A DNA stretch of 64,000 nucleotides, taken from NCBI RefSeq assembly GCF_011044495.1, contig NZ_CP049143.1, forward strand, positions 5,828,001-5,892,000. Direction: 5' to 3'. The notes under the pieces are model-generated. The model worked only from the letters and a program-made list of their open reading frames with translations, did no database searches and was not told the origin of the DNA. The translations under genes were made by a program, and so were the position numbers. Origin of the DNA: Roseimicrobium sp. ORNL1 (GTDB lineage: Bacteria > Verrucomicrobiota > Verrucomicrobiia > Verrucomicrobiales > Verrucomicrobiaceae). Of the stretch, positions 7,531 through 17,036 are shown piece by piece. Within the stretch, counting starts at the first letter, position 1. Each line of letters begins with the position of its first letter.

Positions 7531-9345
7531 TCAATGCTCCTTCGGCTCAATGACGTACATGGCCAGGGTGGCATTGAACGCATCCGAAAGGCTCATGCGT
7601 TTCAACTCATGGCCGGCTCCCCAGGAATCGGTGAAAATTACCTGCTGCTTCGCCTGGTTGTACCCAATGATGAGCCGCATGTGTCCCCCACCGGCCTGAG
7701 CGGCATTGGCTGGTTCCTCGGGGTACCGCCCCAATTCAAGCGCCCAGAGCATGGGAATGCCTTTCGAGGTGTAGTCCTCGATCTGCTTTTCGAACTTGGC
7801 AAAGGGGACCTCCGTCATGCGATTGCCATACGGAACGCCATAGCCACCCCGGCTCAGGCGGTAGCCCAGTGCCTTGAAGTTCACCTTGAAGCGACTGTCG
7901 ATCTTCCGGAGGGCGTCTTCCATGTCCATGGAGTTCGTTCCACTGCCCGCATCCGAGCCGGCGATTTGCGCAATCTCGTGCTGGTCACAGGGGATGCGCA
8001 GATAGCTAAACAACCGCTGACAAGAAGCCACGACGCAATATCCCTTGGCCCCCTGATCGACCATCGGCACCTCGCCAATGAACACGTCACCGTTTTTCTC
8101 ACGCTTCACGAATCGGGGGAGCTCGGCCTTTCCCAGCGCGGTGCGGCGCATGCTCTGTCCCGTTTCGCTGGCAAAGGCCTCACGCTCTCCCGGTGCCGCG
8201 AGGCGGAGGCGGAGAAACTCGGGCTGGCCACCCTCCAGCGCGCCCGCATTGTACTCGAGCGCGGCCAGTGCGGACGGCGCGTTCCACGCCCAGCCGCCAA
8301 TCTTCACTGCAGATTGCGCGCTGGGACGCCGCTCGGTGGGACGCACTCCAAGAATCTTCCCCATGGAGACGCCGGCCGTCTGGTAGCGCCGCTTGAATTC
8401 CTCCGCCTGCACCGATCCGCTGTCACCGCGATTGTAGAGAGACACAGACACACGCGAAGCCTTCCCTTTGGTGAACTCAACCACCGCCTCCTCCACCGGG
8501 ACCGCGCCATCGAAGAGACTGAGGTCCACCTCGACATTGCTGAAGGGATGTCGTGAGAAACGCACGCCCGTCTTGTCGCTCGTAAGCCACTGGTAGTACG
8601 GAGACTCGTCTCCGCCCGGCGTGGCAAACAACTTCTCCACCCTCTCCGGGGTGAGGGACCAAAGCGCAGGCAATGCCAGGAGGGAATCGAGGTTCAGAAA
8701 GAACTTCGGATCCTCAGTCATGAGTTTCTGCACGGGATAACCAGCCACCAGAATCGGATCAGCTGAGGCTGGTGCAAAGGAAATGCGCATCAGCTTCTTG
8801 TTCTTGCTCACGCTGAGCACGCCCATGGCGTTGGCGTTTCGCCAGACCATGGTGCGCATGCCTTTCTCACCTTCGAATCCGCGGAGTTGCGCTTGCGCGG
8901 TAGGCGTGGCAGCGAACAACGTGTCCAGAGCACTCTGCACCGAAGCCAGCAATTTCTCGAAATCCGGCGTCTCCTGCGTCACCTGAACGATCAGTTGATT
9001 CACCTTGCCGCCGGTAAAATACACCCCTGCATAGTCCACCGGTACCTTGCCTGCGAAGAGGCTGAGATGTGCGCCAGAATCGGCATAGGGCTTCGCGTCA
9101 AAGACCGCCACGTCCTTCGCCCCCTTGGTACGCCCAATCCAGTAGAACTCCGGACTTTGCTTCACCCCGGCATCCACAAAAGCCGTGCCGACCGTCTCCT
9201 GGGTCTTGTCCCAGAGACCAGGAAAGGTTAGCAGCGGATCAAGATTAACCTGCACCTTGCCGCTTTCCGATTGGGCGGACAATGCAGGCGCGGCAAGTTG
9301 CACGACGCCACAGACCAGCAGGAGGGGAAGCAGATGGCGGAGCAT
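7531..9345 (-). CDS. Secreted C39-like (papain-fold) peptidase with duplicated N-terminal module
   Basis: A 604-aa protein with a Sec signal (MLRHLLPLLLVCGVVQLAAP...ALSAQ). The C-terminal ~180 residues form a C39-type papain-like domain: QGAKGYCVVAS with Cys437, GGGHMRLIIGY with His555 and TDSWG with Asp573, a complete Cys/His/Asp triad. The first ~310 residues hold two related modules. Both begin with a LxxDxLLxxPxLW motif followed by xSPxYxW, then LSLFxGxVPVxxAxVxFTxGK. The modules may bind substrate or control the protease. Isolated C39 domains are best known from bacteriocin ABC exporters, but no transporter is here, so the target is unknown. Confidence 0.75.
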   Translation of the reverse strand: MLRHLLPLLLVCGVVQLAAPALSAQSESGKVQVNLDPLLTFPGLWDKTQETVGTAFVDAGVKQSPEFYWIGRTKGAKDVAVFDAKPYADSGAHLSLFAGKVPVDYAGVYFTGGKVNQLIVQVTQETPDFEKLLASVQSALDTLFAATPTAQAQLRGFEGEKGMRTMVWRNANAMGVLSVSKNKKLMRISFAPASADPILVAGYPVQKLMTEDPKFFLNLDSLLALPALWSLTPERVEKLFATPGGDESPYYQWLTSDKTGVRFSRHPFSNVEVDLSLFDGAVPVEEAVVEFTKGKASRVSVSLYNRGDSGSVQAEEFKRRYQTAGVSMGKILGVRPTERRPSAQSAVKIGGWAWNAPSALAALEYNAGALEGGQPEFLRLRLAAPGEREAFASETGQSMRRTALGKAELPRFVKREKNGDVFIGEVPMVDQGAKGYCVVASCQRLFSYLRIPCDQHEIAQIAGSDAGSGTNSMDMEDALRKIDSRFKVNFKALGYRLSRGGYGVPYGNRMTEVPFAKFEKQIEDYTSKGIPMLWALELGRYPEEPANAAQAGGGHMRLIIGYNQAKQQVIFTDSWGAGHELKRMSLSDAFNATLAMYVIEPKEH

Positions 9346-9355
9346 AGGAGAAAAA

Positions 9356-9963
9356 TTGGTTTTGGAGGACCGCTAATGGGCGCTTACTGACGCTAATAAT
9401 TCAGGCTCTTCTCCTCTCTTGCCTTGGCTGGATCGGCTTCCTCTTGGAAAGATCTACGAATTCCGAGAGCACAAGGCGGCGCCATTCAACTTCCTTGGCT
9501 GGCCCAAAGTTGATGAGATATCCCACAGGCTTTCGTGAAAGTCGCATGTAATTCATCAATTGCCCCTGATGGTCCGAAGCCAAGGCACTGAGGGATTTCA
9601 GTTCCACTACAATGGTGTTGTACACATACAAATCGGGGACGTAGCGTTTCCGCAATTCCCTTCCCTTATAGAAGACCGCGATCTCCTGTTTGGCCACGAA
9701 GGGGATGCTCCTGCGCTCCAATTCATTCTCCAGGCATTCTTGGTAAATATCTTCCAGCAGCCCGCCTCCGACTTCACGATGCACCTCAAATGCCCCCCCC
9801 ATGAGATCATACCCTTCCTGGGCAAATGGCACTCTGCACTCTGGAATGTCGAAATCTTCCGGTTTCATTTCAGCGCATTATGCCGAAGCTGCCCATCGAT
9901 GGCACCATCACAAAGGTCCAAACATTAGCGTTCGTTAGCGTCAATTAGCGGTCCGAAAACCAA
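9356..9963. mobile_element. Inverted-repeat-bounded unit carrying a GxxExxY gene
   Basis: About 40-bp imperfect inverted repeats enclose the GxxExxY gene: left arm 9356-9397, right arm 9924-9963. Each arm reads inward as TTGGTTTT, then GGACCGCTAAT, then further units, giving three copies of a ~10-bp unit (CGCTAAY plus NRR). The left arm stops three bases before the gene's stop codon. No transposase is present and no target-site duplication is obvious. A related repeat pair without a gene lies at 16815-17005. Mobility is inferred from the architecture. Confidence 0.5.
9401..9868 (-). CDS. GxxExxY family protein
   Basis: A 155-aa protein with the family signature early in the sequence: VHREVGGGLLEDIYQECL, the G-x-x-E-x-x-Y pattern, followed by a conserved basic core (VAKQEIAVFYKGRELRKRY) and the PDLYVYNTIVVELKS segment. 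The D...E-x-K arrangement resembles the PD-(D/E)xK nuclease core. Family function is not established. It is likely cytoplasmic, with no signal or membrane segment. It occupies almost the whole space between two inverted repeats, and its neighbours (a secreted protease and a DUF1501 gene) have no evident link to it, consistent with acquisition as a unit. Confidence 0.85.
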   Translation of the reverse strand: MKPEDFDIPECRVPFAQEGYDLMGGAFEVHREVGGGLLEDIYQECLENELERRSIPFVAKQEIAVFYKGRELRKRYVPDLYVYNTIVVELKSLSALASDHQGQLMNYMRLSRKPVGYLINFGPAKEVEWRRLVLSEFVDLSKRKPIQPRQERRRA

Positions 9964-10002: not shown

Positions 10003-11436
10003 CTACGCCAGGAGCGGTTTCACCACATTCCCTGCCACGTCTGTCAGGCGGAAGTCGCGGCCTTGGAAACGGAAGGTGAGGCGTTCGTGATTCACCCCCA
10101 GCAGGTGCAGCAGGGTGGCGTGGAAGTCATTCACATGCACAGGGTCACGGGCGATGGTGTAGCCGAGTTCATCCGTCTCACCATAGGTCATGCCGCCCTT
10201 GATGCCGCCGCCGGCCATCCAGAAGGTGAAGCAACCACGGTGGTGGTCGCGACCAAAGCTGGGGATGTCTCCCTTGGTAATGCTGCCCTGCGAATAGCTC
10301 GTGCGACCAAACTCTCCACCCCAAATCACCAGGGTATCCTTGAGCATGTCGCGCTGCTTGAGGTCCTTGATGAGCGCGGCACACGGTTGGTCAATCTCCG
10401 AGGCGCCCATCGCGAAGTCACGAGGCAGACCGCCATGGTGATCCCAGCCCGGGTGGTAGAGCTGGATGAACTTGACGTTCTTCTCCGCAAGGCGACGCGC
10501 CAGAATGCAATTTGCCGCGAAGCTGCCGGGCTTCTTCGCATCCTTGCCATACATCTCGTAGATGTGCTCGGGCTCACCGCTGATGTCCGTGACTTCCGGC
10601 ACACTGGCCTGCATGCGGAAGGCCATTTCATATTGCTCGATGCGCGAGTTGATGGCTGCATCCTGCCTGATGGCATGCTCATGCGCGTGCAACTTGTTCA
10701 GGGCATCGAGCATATTGCGCGTGTCCTGGCGTGCGACCCCTGCGGGTTCGCTGAGATACAGCACCGGATCCTTCGCCGCGCGGAACTGCACGCCCTGATA
10801 CTGCGTGGGAAGAAATCCGCTGTCCCAAAGCCGGGCACTCAGCGGCTGGTCCACGCCACGCTTGCTGATGAGCACGATGAAGCTCGGCAGGTCGCGATTA
10901 TCCGTGCCGAGGCCATAGCTCACCCACGCACCGATGCTCGGGCGACCAGGGAGGGGAGAACCTGTCTGCAGAAATGTCAGGGCAGGGTCGTGATTCACCG
11001 CCTCCGAGAACATGCTCTTCACGAAACAAAGATCGTCCACCACCTTCGCCGTTTCGGGGAAGACGGAGCTCACCCAGGCACCACTCTTCCCATGCTGGGC
11101 ATACTTGTACGGGCTGCCGACGAGCGGGAAGTAACTCTGCGAGCCAGCCATCCCCGGCAGCATCTTGCCCTTGCGCAGGGACTCGGGAAACTCCACGCCC
11201 TGCTTCTCATTCAGATAGGGCTTGTAGTCGAAGCTCTCCAGATGCGAGGGCCCACCGCTCATGAAGAGGAAGATCACCCGCTTCGCCTTCGGCGCGAAAT
11301 GCGGCAAGCCCGGCAATCCACCCAATGATGCAGACGTTGGTGCTTCAGCACTCGGCGCCGCGGACACCATGTCCGCGAGGGCGAGGCTGCCGAAACCAAG
11401 ACCGGCACGCTGAAGAAGCTGACGACGGGAGAACAT
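10003..11436 (-). CDS. DUF1501 domain protein, exported (first copy)
   Basis: A 477-aa protein with a twin-arginine-like leader (SRRQLLQRAGLGFGSLALAD) and the DUF1501 core: FAPKAKRVIFLFMSGGPSHLESFDYKP near the start, later VIWGGEFGRT and GRDHHRGCFTFWMAGGG. DUF1501 belongs to the alkaline-phosphatase/sulfatase-like superfamily; the biochemical role is not established. It follows the PSD1 gene by 15 bp on the same strand, the recurrent PVC-phylum arrangement suggesting that the two exported proteins act together on an extracytoplasmic substrate. Confidence 0.9.
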   Translation of the reverse strand: MFSRRQLLQRAGLGFGSLALADMVSAAPSAEAPTSASLGGLPGLPHFAPKAKRVIFLFMSGGPSHLESFDYKPYLNEKQGVEFPESLRKGKMLPGMAGSQSYFPLVGSPYKYAQHGKSGAWVSSVFPETAKVVDDLCFVKSMFSEAVNHDPALTFLQTGSPLPGRPSIGAWVSYGLGTDNRDLPSFIVLISKRGVDQPLSARLWDSGFLPTQYQGVQFRAAKDPVLYLSEPAGVARQDTRNMLDALNKLHAHEHAIRQDAAINSRIEQYEMAFRMQASVPEVTDISGEPEHIYEMYGKDAKKPGSFAANCILARRLAEKNVKFIQLYHPGWDHHGGLPRDFAMGASEIDQPCAALIKDLKQRDMLKDTLVIWGGEFGRTSYSQGSITKGDIPSFGRDHHRGCFTFWMAGGGIKGGMTYGETDELGYTIARDPVHVNDFHATLLHLLGVNHERLTFRFQGRDFRLTDVAGNVVKPLLA

Positions 11437-14859: not shown

Positions 14860-16833
14860 ATGCCCCGCTTCCGCTCTTTGCTTACACCCCTCAATTTTGG
14901 ACGTCTGATTCTCCTGGGAGTGCTGCTAGTTTCTACGGAACAACTCGACGAAATGCGCCCGCCGTGGAAGTCCGCCTGGGCCCGTCACATCGCCGAAGGC
15001 AAGGAACCGACCTTCGGTGAACACCTTTCCACCGGGCTCTGGTATGGCGCGGCGGCCCGGGTGGGTATCTGTGGCGCCTTGCTGGCGGTATCGTTCCTGT
15101 GGGGTGTCGGCCTGAAAAGGAGCTATCCCTCCCCCACACCTCTTTCCCTTGCCCGGCCAGATGATGCAGCGGTGTCCCCCCGTACTTTCGCCTTGGTACT
15201 GGGGGTGATTGTGGCGGGATCTCTGGTGCTTCGGCTGCCAAGGATGACCCACTCCTTCTGGGGAGACGAGGCAGACGCCATGGCCACCTATGTCCACGGC
15301 AACTTCCGGCCTGCGGAAAAGAACGAGCCGGAGGGCCGCTTGTACTTCGAGCAACCCACCTGGGGTCAGAGCTTCTTCAGCGCACGCCATGGGGCGAACA
15401 ACCACGTGCTCTTCACTCTTGCCAGCCGCACGTGTCTGAACGGCTGGCGTCTGGTGACCGGACAGCCCCAGACAGCATTTGTGGAATGGGCAGCTCGCCT
15501 TCCCTCTCTCATCGCCGGCTTGGGCAGCCTGGTCACGCTGGCCCTGTTGCTGAGACGATGGGGACTCCCCACCGTGGGCCTGCTGGCGGCCGCGGTGATG
15601 TCCATCCATCCGTGGCATGTGCGGTACACGGCGGAAGCGCGAGGGTACGCGCTCATGCTGCTTCTCATGCCCATACTTTTGATCGTGCTCACGAATGCGC
15701 TTGAGAAGAACCTCTGGCGTGACTGGTTGCTCTTCGCCCTGGGCGAGTTTCTCCTGATGTACTCCTGGGCTGGCATCATGTACGGTCTGGCCGCGCTCAA
15801 TGTCGCTGCTGCGGTGCTGATGCTGCTGCGAAAAGATCGCCTGCCGCTGCTGGTGCGCTGGACTACCGCCAACATGCTGGCCGCGGTGGTCTTCGTGTCG
15901 CTCTATCTGCCGCACCTGCCACAGATAGAAAGCGCAAGAAAACGACTGCTGTGGATCAAAGGCCTGCCCATGGACAAGGTCTGGTTCCACAACCTGATCA
16001 CGCAACCCTTCACGGGCATCTCGTATCACGAGATGAATGCCGGCAATCCATCCGAAATGAGTTGGGAGCGACTGTTCCGTGAGTCTCCTGCCATCACCTC
16101 GACCGGGTTCGCCATCATTCTGCTGGCGTTTGCCGTGGGATTCGTAGCCCTGTGGCGGCGCAACCGGTCAGTGGCATGGCTGGTGTCTGCCATCCTCGGA
16201 GCTAGCGTGGTCTGCACCCTGCACTTCAAATTCATCCTCAAGGATGAGCTTCGGGCCTGGTATCTCATTTTTACCCTGCCCTTCATCTCCTTGTGCGTGG
16301 CTCTCGGACTGTACGAAATCACCTCCCTGATAAAGAAGTGCGCCGCCCAAGGACCGTCTCCACTTATGGCCCGAACAGGTGCTGTGATCGTTTGCCTGCT
16401 TCTCATCGGAGCCTCCACCTGGCCCATGAATGCCAGCCTGATCACCCAACCCGAAGAAGACTACAAGGGAGTTGTAGCTGCCAGCCTCTCCCGTCATGAG
16501 AGCTTCGCTCCAGACACGGCATCAAAGGTCCACGTGGTCTGGCTGTGGCGCTTCTCCGCGCTGTACGATCCCCGGGGTGAAAGCCGTGCGAGAAACCTGC
16601 CAGATCTAAAGGTCTACATGGAGAAGGCACTTCAGTCGGGACGTGAGTTGTACGTCGTCGTGGGCTTCCGTGAACTGGCGAAACTGAAAAGCGCGGACAT
16701 CCTCGCCGTGCTTGAGGATCCCGCGCAGTATGAGAGCGTGGTTTCCTTTCCCTCACGCGAGTCGCTGCACACGCTGGATGTGTACCGGATGAAGCGGAGT
16801 GGAGCTTCGGCTCTAACCACTAATAAACACTAA
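14860..16833 (+). CDS. GT39-type (ArnT/PMT-like) membrane glycosyltransferase
   Basis: About 657 aa with roughly ten or more hydrophobic segments. An in-frame upstream start at 14758 exists, but MPRFRSLL at 14860 better begins the first membrane helix. The motif SFWGDEADAM (~residue 130) after a membrane segment matches the catalytic acidic pair in the first periplasmic loop of GT39-like enzymes, which move sugars from polyprenyl-phosphate donors onto proteins or lipids. YTAEARGYALMLLLMP is also family-like. The acceptor is unknown. The last codons and TAA stop fall within the left arm of a repeat, so the C-terminus may have been altered by insertion. Confidence 0.75.
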   Translation: MPRFRSLLTPLNFGRLILLGVLLVSTEQLDEMRPPWKSAWARHIAEGKEPTFGEHLSTGLWYGAAARVGICGALLAVSFLWGVGLKRSYPSPTPLSLARPDDAAVSPRTFALVLGVIVAGSLVLRLPRMTHSFWGDEADAMATYVHGNFRPAEKNEPEGRLYFEQPTWGQSFFSARHGANNHVLFTLASRTCLNGWRLVTGQPQTAFVEWAARLPSLIAGLGSLVTLALLLRRWGLPTVGLLAAAVMSIHPWHVRYTAEARGYALMLLLMPILLIVLTNALEKNLWRDWLLFALGEFLLMYSWAGIMYGLAALNVAAAVLMLLRKDRLPLLVRWTTANMLAAVVFVSLYLPHLPQIESARKRLLWIKGLPMDKVWFHNLITQPFTGISYHEMNAGNPSEMSWERLFRESPAITSTGFAIILLAFAVGFVALWRRNRSVAWLVSAILGASVVCTLHFKFILKDELRAWYLIFTLPFISLCVALGLYEITSLIKKCAAQGPSPLMARTGAVIVCLLLIGASTWPMNASLITQPEEDYKGVVAASLSRHESFAPDTASKVHVVWLWRFSALYDPRGESRARNLPDLKVYMEKALQSGRELYVVVGFRELAKLKSADILAVLEDPAQYESVVSFPSRESLHTLDVYRMKRSGASALTTNKH

Positions 16834-17005
16834 CGGAACGCTAATAGGATCTGTGTTGGCAATCCGCAGTGAGATGTATTGGTCCCACGGAGCTTAACAT
16901 TTGCAAGGAAGCAACCGAACGCACTACCACTGCCTCGACCGAAACAACACTTATCAGTTCCATTCAGGAATCAAAATTAGTGTTCGTTAGTGCCCATTAG
17001 TGGTT
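16815..17005. repeat. Gene-less inverted-repeat element (MITE-like), second copy
   Basis: Left arm 16815-16845 and right arm 16976-17005 are inverted: both read inward as AACCACTAAT, CACTAAC and then CTAAT units in a ~10-bp period. The units resemble those around the GxxExxY gene, with CACTAAT replacing CGCTAAT. The ~130-bp interior has no open reading frame of note. A non-autonomous derivative of the 9.4-10.0 kb unit is inferred. Confidence 0.5.
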
Positions 17006-17036
17006 CGAACCGTCACTTCCTTCCTCCCGCACTCCC

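Follow-up and report, generated by a model that had tools for sequence, protein, structure and literature searches.

The boxed gene of the window

We analysed a window of 64,000 nucleotides from the Roseimicrobium sp. ORNL1 genome (G000; 7.96 Mb, the single contig C1, of which the window covers positions 5828001-5892000). It contains a small GxxExxY gene of 155 amino acids (9401..9868, minus strand), for which a PD-(D/E)XK nuclease fold is predicted, boxed by two inverted arms. The left arm (9356..9397, plus strand) opens with eight outer bases, TTGGTTTT (9356-9363), followed by GGACC and by the three plus-strand heptamers CGCTAAT (9371-9377), CGCTTAC (9381-9387) and CGCTAAT (9391-9397). In the right arm (9924..9963, minus strand), the inverted heptamers (9924-9950) are followed by GGTCC and by the shared outer bases, here AAAACCAA (9956-9963). 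Read inward, the left heptamers are separated by the spacers GGG and TGA, and the right arm reads CGCTAAT, CGCTAAC and CGCTAAT with the spacers TGA and GAA, so that the arm unit at this gene is a CGCTAAY heptamer plus three nucleotides, repeated three times per arm in 10-bp steps. The arm cores (9367-9397 and 9924-9954) pair in inverted orientation over 31 nt at 84%, and the left arm stops three bases short of the stop codon of the gene.

The unit lies between a gene of 604 amino acids (7531..9345, minus strand), whose start codon lies at a distance of 21 bp from GGACC in the left arm, and one of 477 amino acids (10003..11436, minus strand). A hairpin of a second arm type (AACCACTAAT...; 16808..17012) has arms at 16808-16835 and 16985-17012 that match at 82%, consists mostly of CACTAAY units and has no GxxExxY gene inside. 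These features bear out the original prediction of a GxxExxY gene boxed by inverted repeats, with arms of about 40 bp that share an outer sequence, a left arm ending three bases from the stop and a related repeat pair near 16815-17005, which spans slightly more than proposed. The 10-bp unit it described applies to the window gene but is not a general rule, as heptamers in the family are spaced 8, 9 or 10 bp apart.

The libraries used list GxxExxY as a family but state no function for it. The window protein matches PF13366 (PDDEXK_3; E 1.3e-37, 129.2 bits, cut-off 22), its sole Pfam match, and TIGR04256 (GxxExxY; E 7.9e-37, 126.2 bits, curated cut-off 35). Across 26 chosen sequences, G34, G36, L38, E39, Y42, D79, K91, Q103, Y107, N120 and F121 are invariant and E89 is near-invariant (at least 90% of them); the conserved residues of the window protein thus include E39, D79, E89, K91, Q103 and Y107. 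The folds closest to its predicted structure (pLDDT 91.0, pTM 0.77) are SSO0001 (4ic1; Z 9.2 over 98 residues, 3.8 A; Foldseek E 2.5e-4, TM below 0.5), which we take to be a Cas4, and lambda exonuclease (Foldseek E 2.2e-4, TM 0.46). An archaeal Holliday junction resolvase reaches Z 6.8, a range where a match may reflect a common core only.

On the strength of an acidic pair and an ExK motif placed on this modelled fold, the window protein is assigned to the PD-(D/E)XK superfamily, and nuclease activity is predicted for it; the proposed PD-(D/E)xK-like core is thereby upheld, the best fold matches being such nucleases. GxxExxY proteins resemble Cas4, RecB-like and lambda-exonuclease nucleases in predicted fold and in their D...ExK and QxxxY residues, but differ in being only about 120-155 amino acids long and boxed by arms. 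Kinship with T7 endonuclease I was rejected, the match being too weak (E 0.34). A phage endonuclease profile matched one of three proteins tested (E 6.4e-4), and a defence library gave partial, weak matches, likewise for one of three.

Arm repeats in the genome and at matching sites of relatives

The three-unit pattern CRCKAAYNNNCRCKAAYNNNCRCKAAY has 44 matches in the 7.96-Mb genome and its reversed control none, so the arms are not a product of chance. Around the clustered matches we counted 75 arm segments in 36 clusters, leaving out five isolated one-mismatch matches. Adjacent arms of the same type are arranged head to head in 26 of 27 pairs, enclosing 40 to 1057 bp. Only 2 of 71 arm midpoints fall into an ORF of at least 250 amino acids, whereas such ORFs cover 648 of 1080 points placed at random in these loci; the arms avoid genes and are extragenic.

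Of these arm pairs, only one holds a GxxExxY gene. The genome has four GxxExxY genes, of which the window gene alone lies in a CGCTAAY pair; the three others are also boxed, each by its own word, and every one of the four has a separate arm family that includes solo copies. Over about 126 kb of the genome (L065-L093), solo arms without a gene comprised four extra copies for L034, four for L032 and three for L031, two of the latter forming a pair; these copies differ by one to three mismatches. The CACTAAY arms have no GxxExxY gene of their own in this genome. Copies of the unit with and without the gene, as sought in this genome and its relatives, thus both exist.

Several further arrangements were seen. 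At G000:C1:5716421-5716497, a single arm is enlarged to eight tandem CGCTAAT units, with GAA in five of the seven spacers. Nested hairpins occur at L085, L086 and L081, with CACTAAY arms within CGCTAAY pairs at about 85 bp on each side and, once, the reverse. By hand count, 11 of the 36 arm clusters, including the two of the window, lie inside a 176-kb stretch (G000:C1:5669377-5845002).

We consider it very improbable that the arms belong to a DDE-transposase element as ordinary MITE-like repeats and that GxxExxY travels with them by chance. The unit does recall MITEs in its inverted ends and in the existence of copies that lack the gene beside one that bears it, and one CGCTAAY pair of this genome surrounds transposase-like ORFs that look split (L081:3377-4485, i.e. 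G000:C1:5404676-5405784) and that we take to encode an IS630-type transposase. By eye, however, this IS630-like element has its own ends inside the arms, and it was rejected as the mover. The box differs from MITEs and insertion sequences in containing no known transposase domain and in that paralogues carry different arms; in the window box, which holds one gene with PF13366 and TIGR04256 matches only, no DDE, serine, tyrosine or HUH transposase was found.

Sites with and without the gene were compared at the window locus and at three others. In the sister species G001, both neighbours of the window gene match at 76-80%, the gene is absent and an eroded arm of the other type is left; the site matching the 16808-17012 hairpin has no hairpin at all. 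The gap from radA to its neighbour measures 13 bp in Parabacteroides distasonis, and in Bacteroides finegoldii it contains a boxed gene. Sphingomonas paeninsulae has about 30 bp from fabD to the next reading frame and no boxed gene at this site, and S. parapaucimobilis has a boxed gene between fabD and fabG. At the site of a perfect box in G318 (28/28), relatives differ: G444, G431 and G442 have a small hairpin that lacks the gene, G404 has a unit with the gene, and G436 has both a hairpin and a gene-bearing unit in inverted orientation; 6 of the 11 genomes examined in the G318 genus have neither hairpin nor gene there, long intergenic stretches having been viewed at their ends. Sites without the gene are thus either clean or carry a leftover arm or a gene-less hairpin, and the gene-less relatives, at roughly 70-85% identity, are too diverged to read a target duplication or to tell gain from loss. 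A homing endonuclease element would have its gene inserted into its own cleavage site, with a gene-less allele at that site; the gene-less hairpins of G444, G431 and G442 and the relic arm in G001 may reflect either gain or loss of the gene. At L378 and L379 (G436), arms stand inside-out around a common spacer of about 26 bp, recurring at about 340 and 230 bp, an arrangement that looks like abutted element ends.

Five of the six strict-pattern matches in G001 lie at the same sites as hairpins in the Roseimicrobium genome. The hairpins therefore look long-lived and inherited, and frequent jumping is not supported. We give little credence to the idea that the arms are regulatory or terminator sites instead of element ends, which we regard as hardly probable. 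They are intergenic, and a GC-rich inverted stretch follows one arm of the sister species (L094); yet they stand on both sides of a gene that relatives lack at the corresponding site, and paralogues within a single genome carry different words, which change along with the protein.

The box across the family and its match to the protein

The fetched DNA contained 192 unique GxxExxY genes, six of which lacked 120-bp flanks and were excluded; for the remaining 186, arms were sought within 160 bp of the gene ends. At a score of at least 18, 122 of them were boxed (64 scored lower), compared with only 2 in a sample of 600 other ORFs taken from loci of this kind, for which reason we rejected the notion that the arms box any passenger gene; at a score of at least 14, the counts were 148 of 186 and 29 of 600. 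These data support the box as the usual architecture of the GxxExxY family. A scan of 3526 ORFs (85-300 amino acids) yielded 167 that were boxed at 18, comprising 116 GxxExxY genes, 18 TIGR02436-like genes, 15 ORFs overlapping these and 18 others, several of which are bounded by the arm of a neighbouring gene. The scanned loci were chosen around such genes, some of them overlap and they were not deduplicated, so that only the contrast counts; it nevertheless speaks against GxxExxY as a chance passenger of MITE-like repeats.

Among the matches listed, 45 of 74 genes from named genomes were boxed, in 13 bacterial phyla. Planctomycetota (10/13) and Pseudomonadota (15/20) stood beside Bacteroidota (2/8) and Thermodesulfobacteriota (0/3), and neither of two archaeal genes among these matches was boxed at 18. 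This set stems from a query of one clade and from the matches listed, and is therefore not a random sample.

The arm word varies. CRCKAAY arms were found at none of the 30 top GxxExxY loci of the phylum (L132-L161), and the idea of one arm word for the whole family was accordingly dropped. Other heptamers, 8 to 10 bp apart, occur at the loci of the phylum and of the genome itself, e.g. CACAGAG, CACGAAG, CGCAAAG and CACGAAA. Of these loci, 47 of 74 had an inverted match of at least 18 at both gene ends, mostly with other words. Against a null of mispaired flanks, 25 of 74 exceeded the 99th percentile and four the maximum; this null is weak because loci often share words, and neighbouring ORFs were therefore used as the control. 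In a set of 80 loci, five without a motif ORF were left out. GxxExxY genes elsewhere without such arms had been named as a refutation in the original prediction: such genes are indeed found for the CRCKAAY word, but most genes of the family are boxed by a word of their own.

Among 40 further loci from CRCKAAY-bearing genomes, three genes (L172, L173 and L192) have CRCKAAY arms at both ends. In 387 sampled genomes of the phylum, a GxxExxY match was present in 228 and the CRCKAAY three-unit pattern in 102, with one match for the reversed control among the matches listed. By hand count, GxxExxY occurs in 93 of the 102 CRCKAAY genomes versus 135 of the 285 others (Fisher p 3.7e-16, ignoring kinship and genome size). 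At L332 (G101, genus g12), two different GxxExxY genes are adjacent; most sampled g12 genomes are without the family.

In gap-free boxes, the two arms agree at 1366 of 1442 heptamer positions (95%) but at only 161 of 271 spacer positions (59%). The heptamer is kept and the spacer less so, which suggests that a protein reads the arms and that pairing is not the sole constraint. A hand impression from five orthologous sites that spacers evolve faster than flanks was discarded, since alignments by eye disagree.

We also found that the heptamer varies with the protein. After 24 of the 122 boxed genes without a typed heptamer had been left out, a tree of 98 proteins was obtained, which is built on few columns and leaves 42 of 95 inner branches open. 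On this tree, the last position of the heptamer needs 5 changes, where 200 shuffles give 26.1 on average and never fewer than 22; the figures are 16 for the fifth base (mean 32.3, minimum 26), 20 for the fourth (mean 37.3, minimum 29) and 22 for the second (mean 29.3, minimum 23). The correlation of protein identity with the distance between heptamers is -0.565, and none of 300 shuffles goes beyond -0.157; some arms reach into the end of the coding region, and this could slightly raise the Mantel figure. When arms were permuted within genomes only (27 genes in 10 genomes), 0 of 1000 permutations equalled the observed fit, and the link between arm and protein is therefore not just shared host ancestry. 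The data thus support that the heptamer follows the protein tree, within genomes too, and this tells further against MITE-like repeats of an unrelated element.

A second boxed family and a reading of the unit

TIGR02436, which we take to be the S23/IVS four-helix-bundle family and not to comprise nucleases, was meant as a control (L392-L421; 1 of 30 loci had no ORF). Its genes were boxed at a score of at least 18 in 19 of 29 loci, a few of them by long simple arrays, compared with 0 of 76 other ORFs there. The arm words are short-period (7-9 bp), e.g. AGTGGCT or TAGGCTT, and differ from those of GxxExxY. A nuclease is therefore not needed for the architecture. Since two or more unrelated proteins have the box plan in common, the spread of each unit is driven either by its own protein or by an outside factor.

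Such a factor could be host replication or repair, or a reverse transcriptase, which would move arm-bounded units while the boxed protein only binds or protects the arms. We hold this to be unlikely, although it deserves attention: it would explain the same box on two unrelated small proteins, including the TIGR02436 boxes with their other short-period words, and an excerpt of one study mentions a pipeline-called GxxExxY gene, which may be cas4, beside a reverse transcriptase (PMC8934634). Against it stands the complete nuclease active site across 26 aligned GxxExxY members, which would be odd for a mere binder. Moreover, the arms lie within 160 bp of the gene ends, which leaves the box without room for a second enzyme.

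The intervening sequences (IVS) of 23S rRNA offer a further precedent. As described in an excerpt of PMC4990558, these elements have inverted ends that form a 28-bp stem, encode an S23 four-helix bundle, spread patchily and have been called selfish. The GxxExxY unit resembles them in placing one small ORF between inverted ends, and TIGR02436 genes elsewhere are boxed by short-period arms; it differs in that GxxExxY is unrelated to S23, uses other words and sits between protein genes. An RNA-level element of this kind, whose transcript arms would pair and be cut by RNase III, so that insertion into an operon would be harmless, and which would spread by rare copying, is in our view quite improbable here. 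Three GxxExxY genes do lie co-directionally between neighbouring genes, as it would allow; however, the spacers are far less alike than the heptamers, though a stem would favour pairing there too, and the window unit is not in an rRNA.

We lean towards the reading that gene and arms form a minimal selfish unit, comparable to REPIN/RAYT systems, in which a PD-(D/E)XK nuclease takes the place of the HUH transposase. RAYT genes are low-copy and flanked by their own repeats, and the present system is similar in that the arms are extragenic inverted pairs (26/27 head to head, 2/71 in long ORFs) and in that the partner gene is flanked by the same repeats (122/186) with solo copies besides. It differs in its partner, a predicted PD-(D/E)XK nuclease instead of a tyrosine (HUH) transposase, so that the defining feature is missing, and in its arms of three heptamers with free spacers. 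In excerpts of the literature, REP sequences are characterised as short extragenic repeats that occur in inverted pairs and are tied to specific genes (PMC3116915), and REPIN/RAYT populations are said to last millions of years (PMC8049555).

Under the selfish-unit reading, the small nuclease would recognise its own arm word, presented as three heptamers per end about one helical turn apart, and might nick or cut at the paired arms, perhaps when these are extruded as a hairpin or cruciform. PD-(D/E)XK enzymes hydrolyse DNA and are not known to reseal it, so that spread would have to lean on host repair. A break at an intergenic site or at a second hairpin could receive a repair copy of the arm-bounded DNA or, alternatively, repair could move the gene into existing hairpins; gene-less hairpins would then be non-autonomous copies. 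Of the earlier proposal of a self-propagating nuclease unit without a transposase, the box, the co-variation of arm and protein, the gene-less copies and sites and the conserved catalytic residues speak in favour, whereas frequent jumping is not supported, as the hairpins look long-lived and inherited, and the architecture does not require a nuclease, as TIGR02436 is boxed as well.

More broadly, and tentatively, it is quite possible, if somewhat short of probable, that these units represent a bacterial class of minimal selfish elements, each with one small ORF and two inverted arms of a tandem word that is particular to the protein lineage. The class would be used by a Cas4-like nuclease and by the unrelated TIGR02436, and its nuclease type would spread transposase-free by cutting at paired arms and by repair that copies the gene into hairpins. 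The organisation of the box has precedent, and the enzyme does not; we know of no system in which heptamer arms go with a PD-(D/E)XK nuclease that stands alone, and for this reason we rate the combination as new. In open PMC text we found no paper on GxxExxY arms, the GxxExxY passages there concerning other matters. The unit has the look of a minimal mobile element of a type not recognised so far.

The box provides a concrete candidate substrate for GxxExxY proteins, whose sequence seems to allow the arm word to be predicted. If our reading is true, a transposase-free nuclease would be added to the routes by which DNA spreads in bacteria, and an abundant class of intergenic hairpins would be explained and tied to the old S23/IVS puzzle. 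For enzyme engineering, too, it would be of interest if nature had a code that links a heptamer to a nuclease of about 130 residues.

Searches of phage and plasmid collections covered the window clade only. Among 50,697 phage records, tblastn at E 1e-5 found nothing that matches the window protein, which gives no sign of a phage origin, and 8 of 72,556 plasmid records contained a match. Three of the eight plasmid-collection loci reached a score of at least 20 (L295, L296 and L299), and the others scored 8 to 14. A GxxExxY protein is also entered in a table on the genome of the algal virus CpV-BQ1 (PMC12085832, Table 1).
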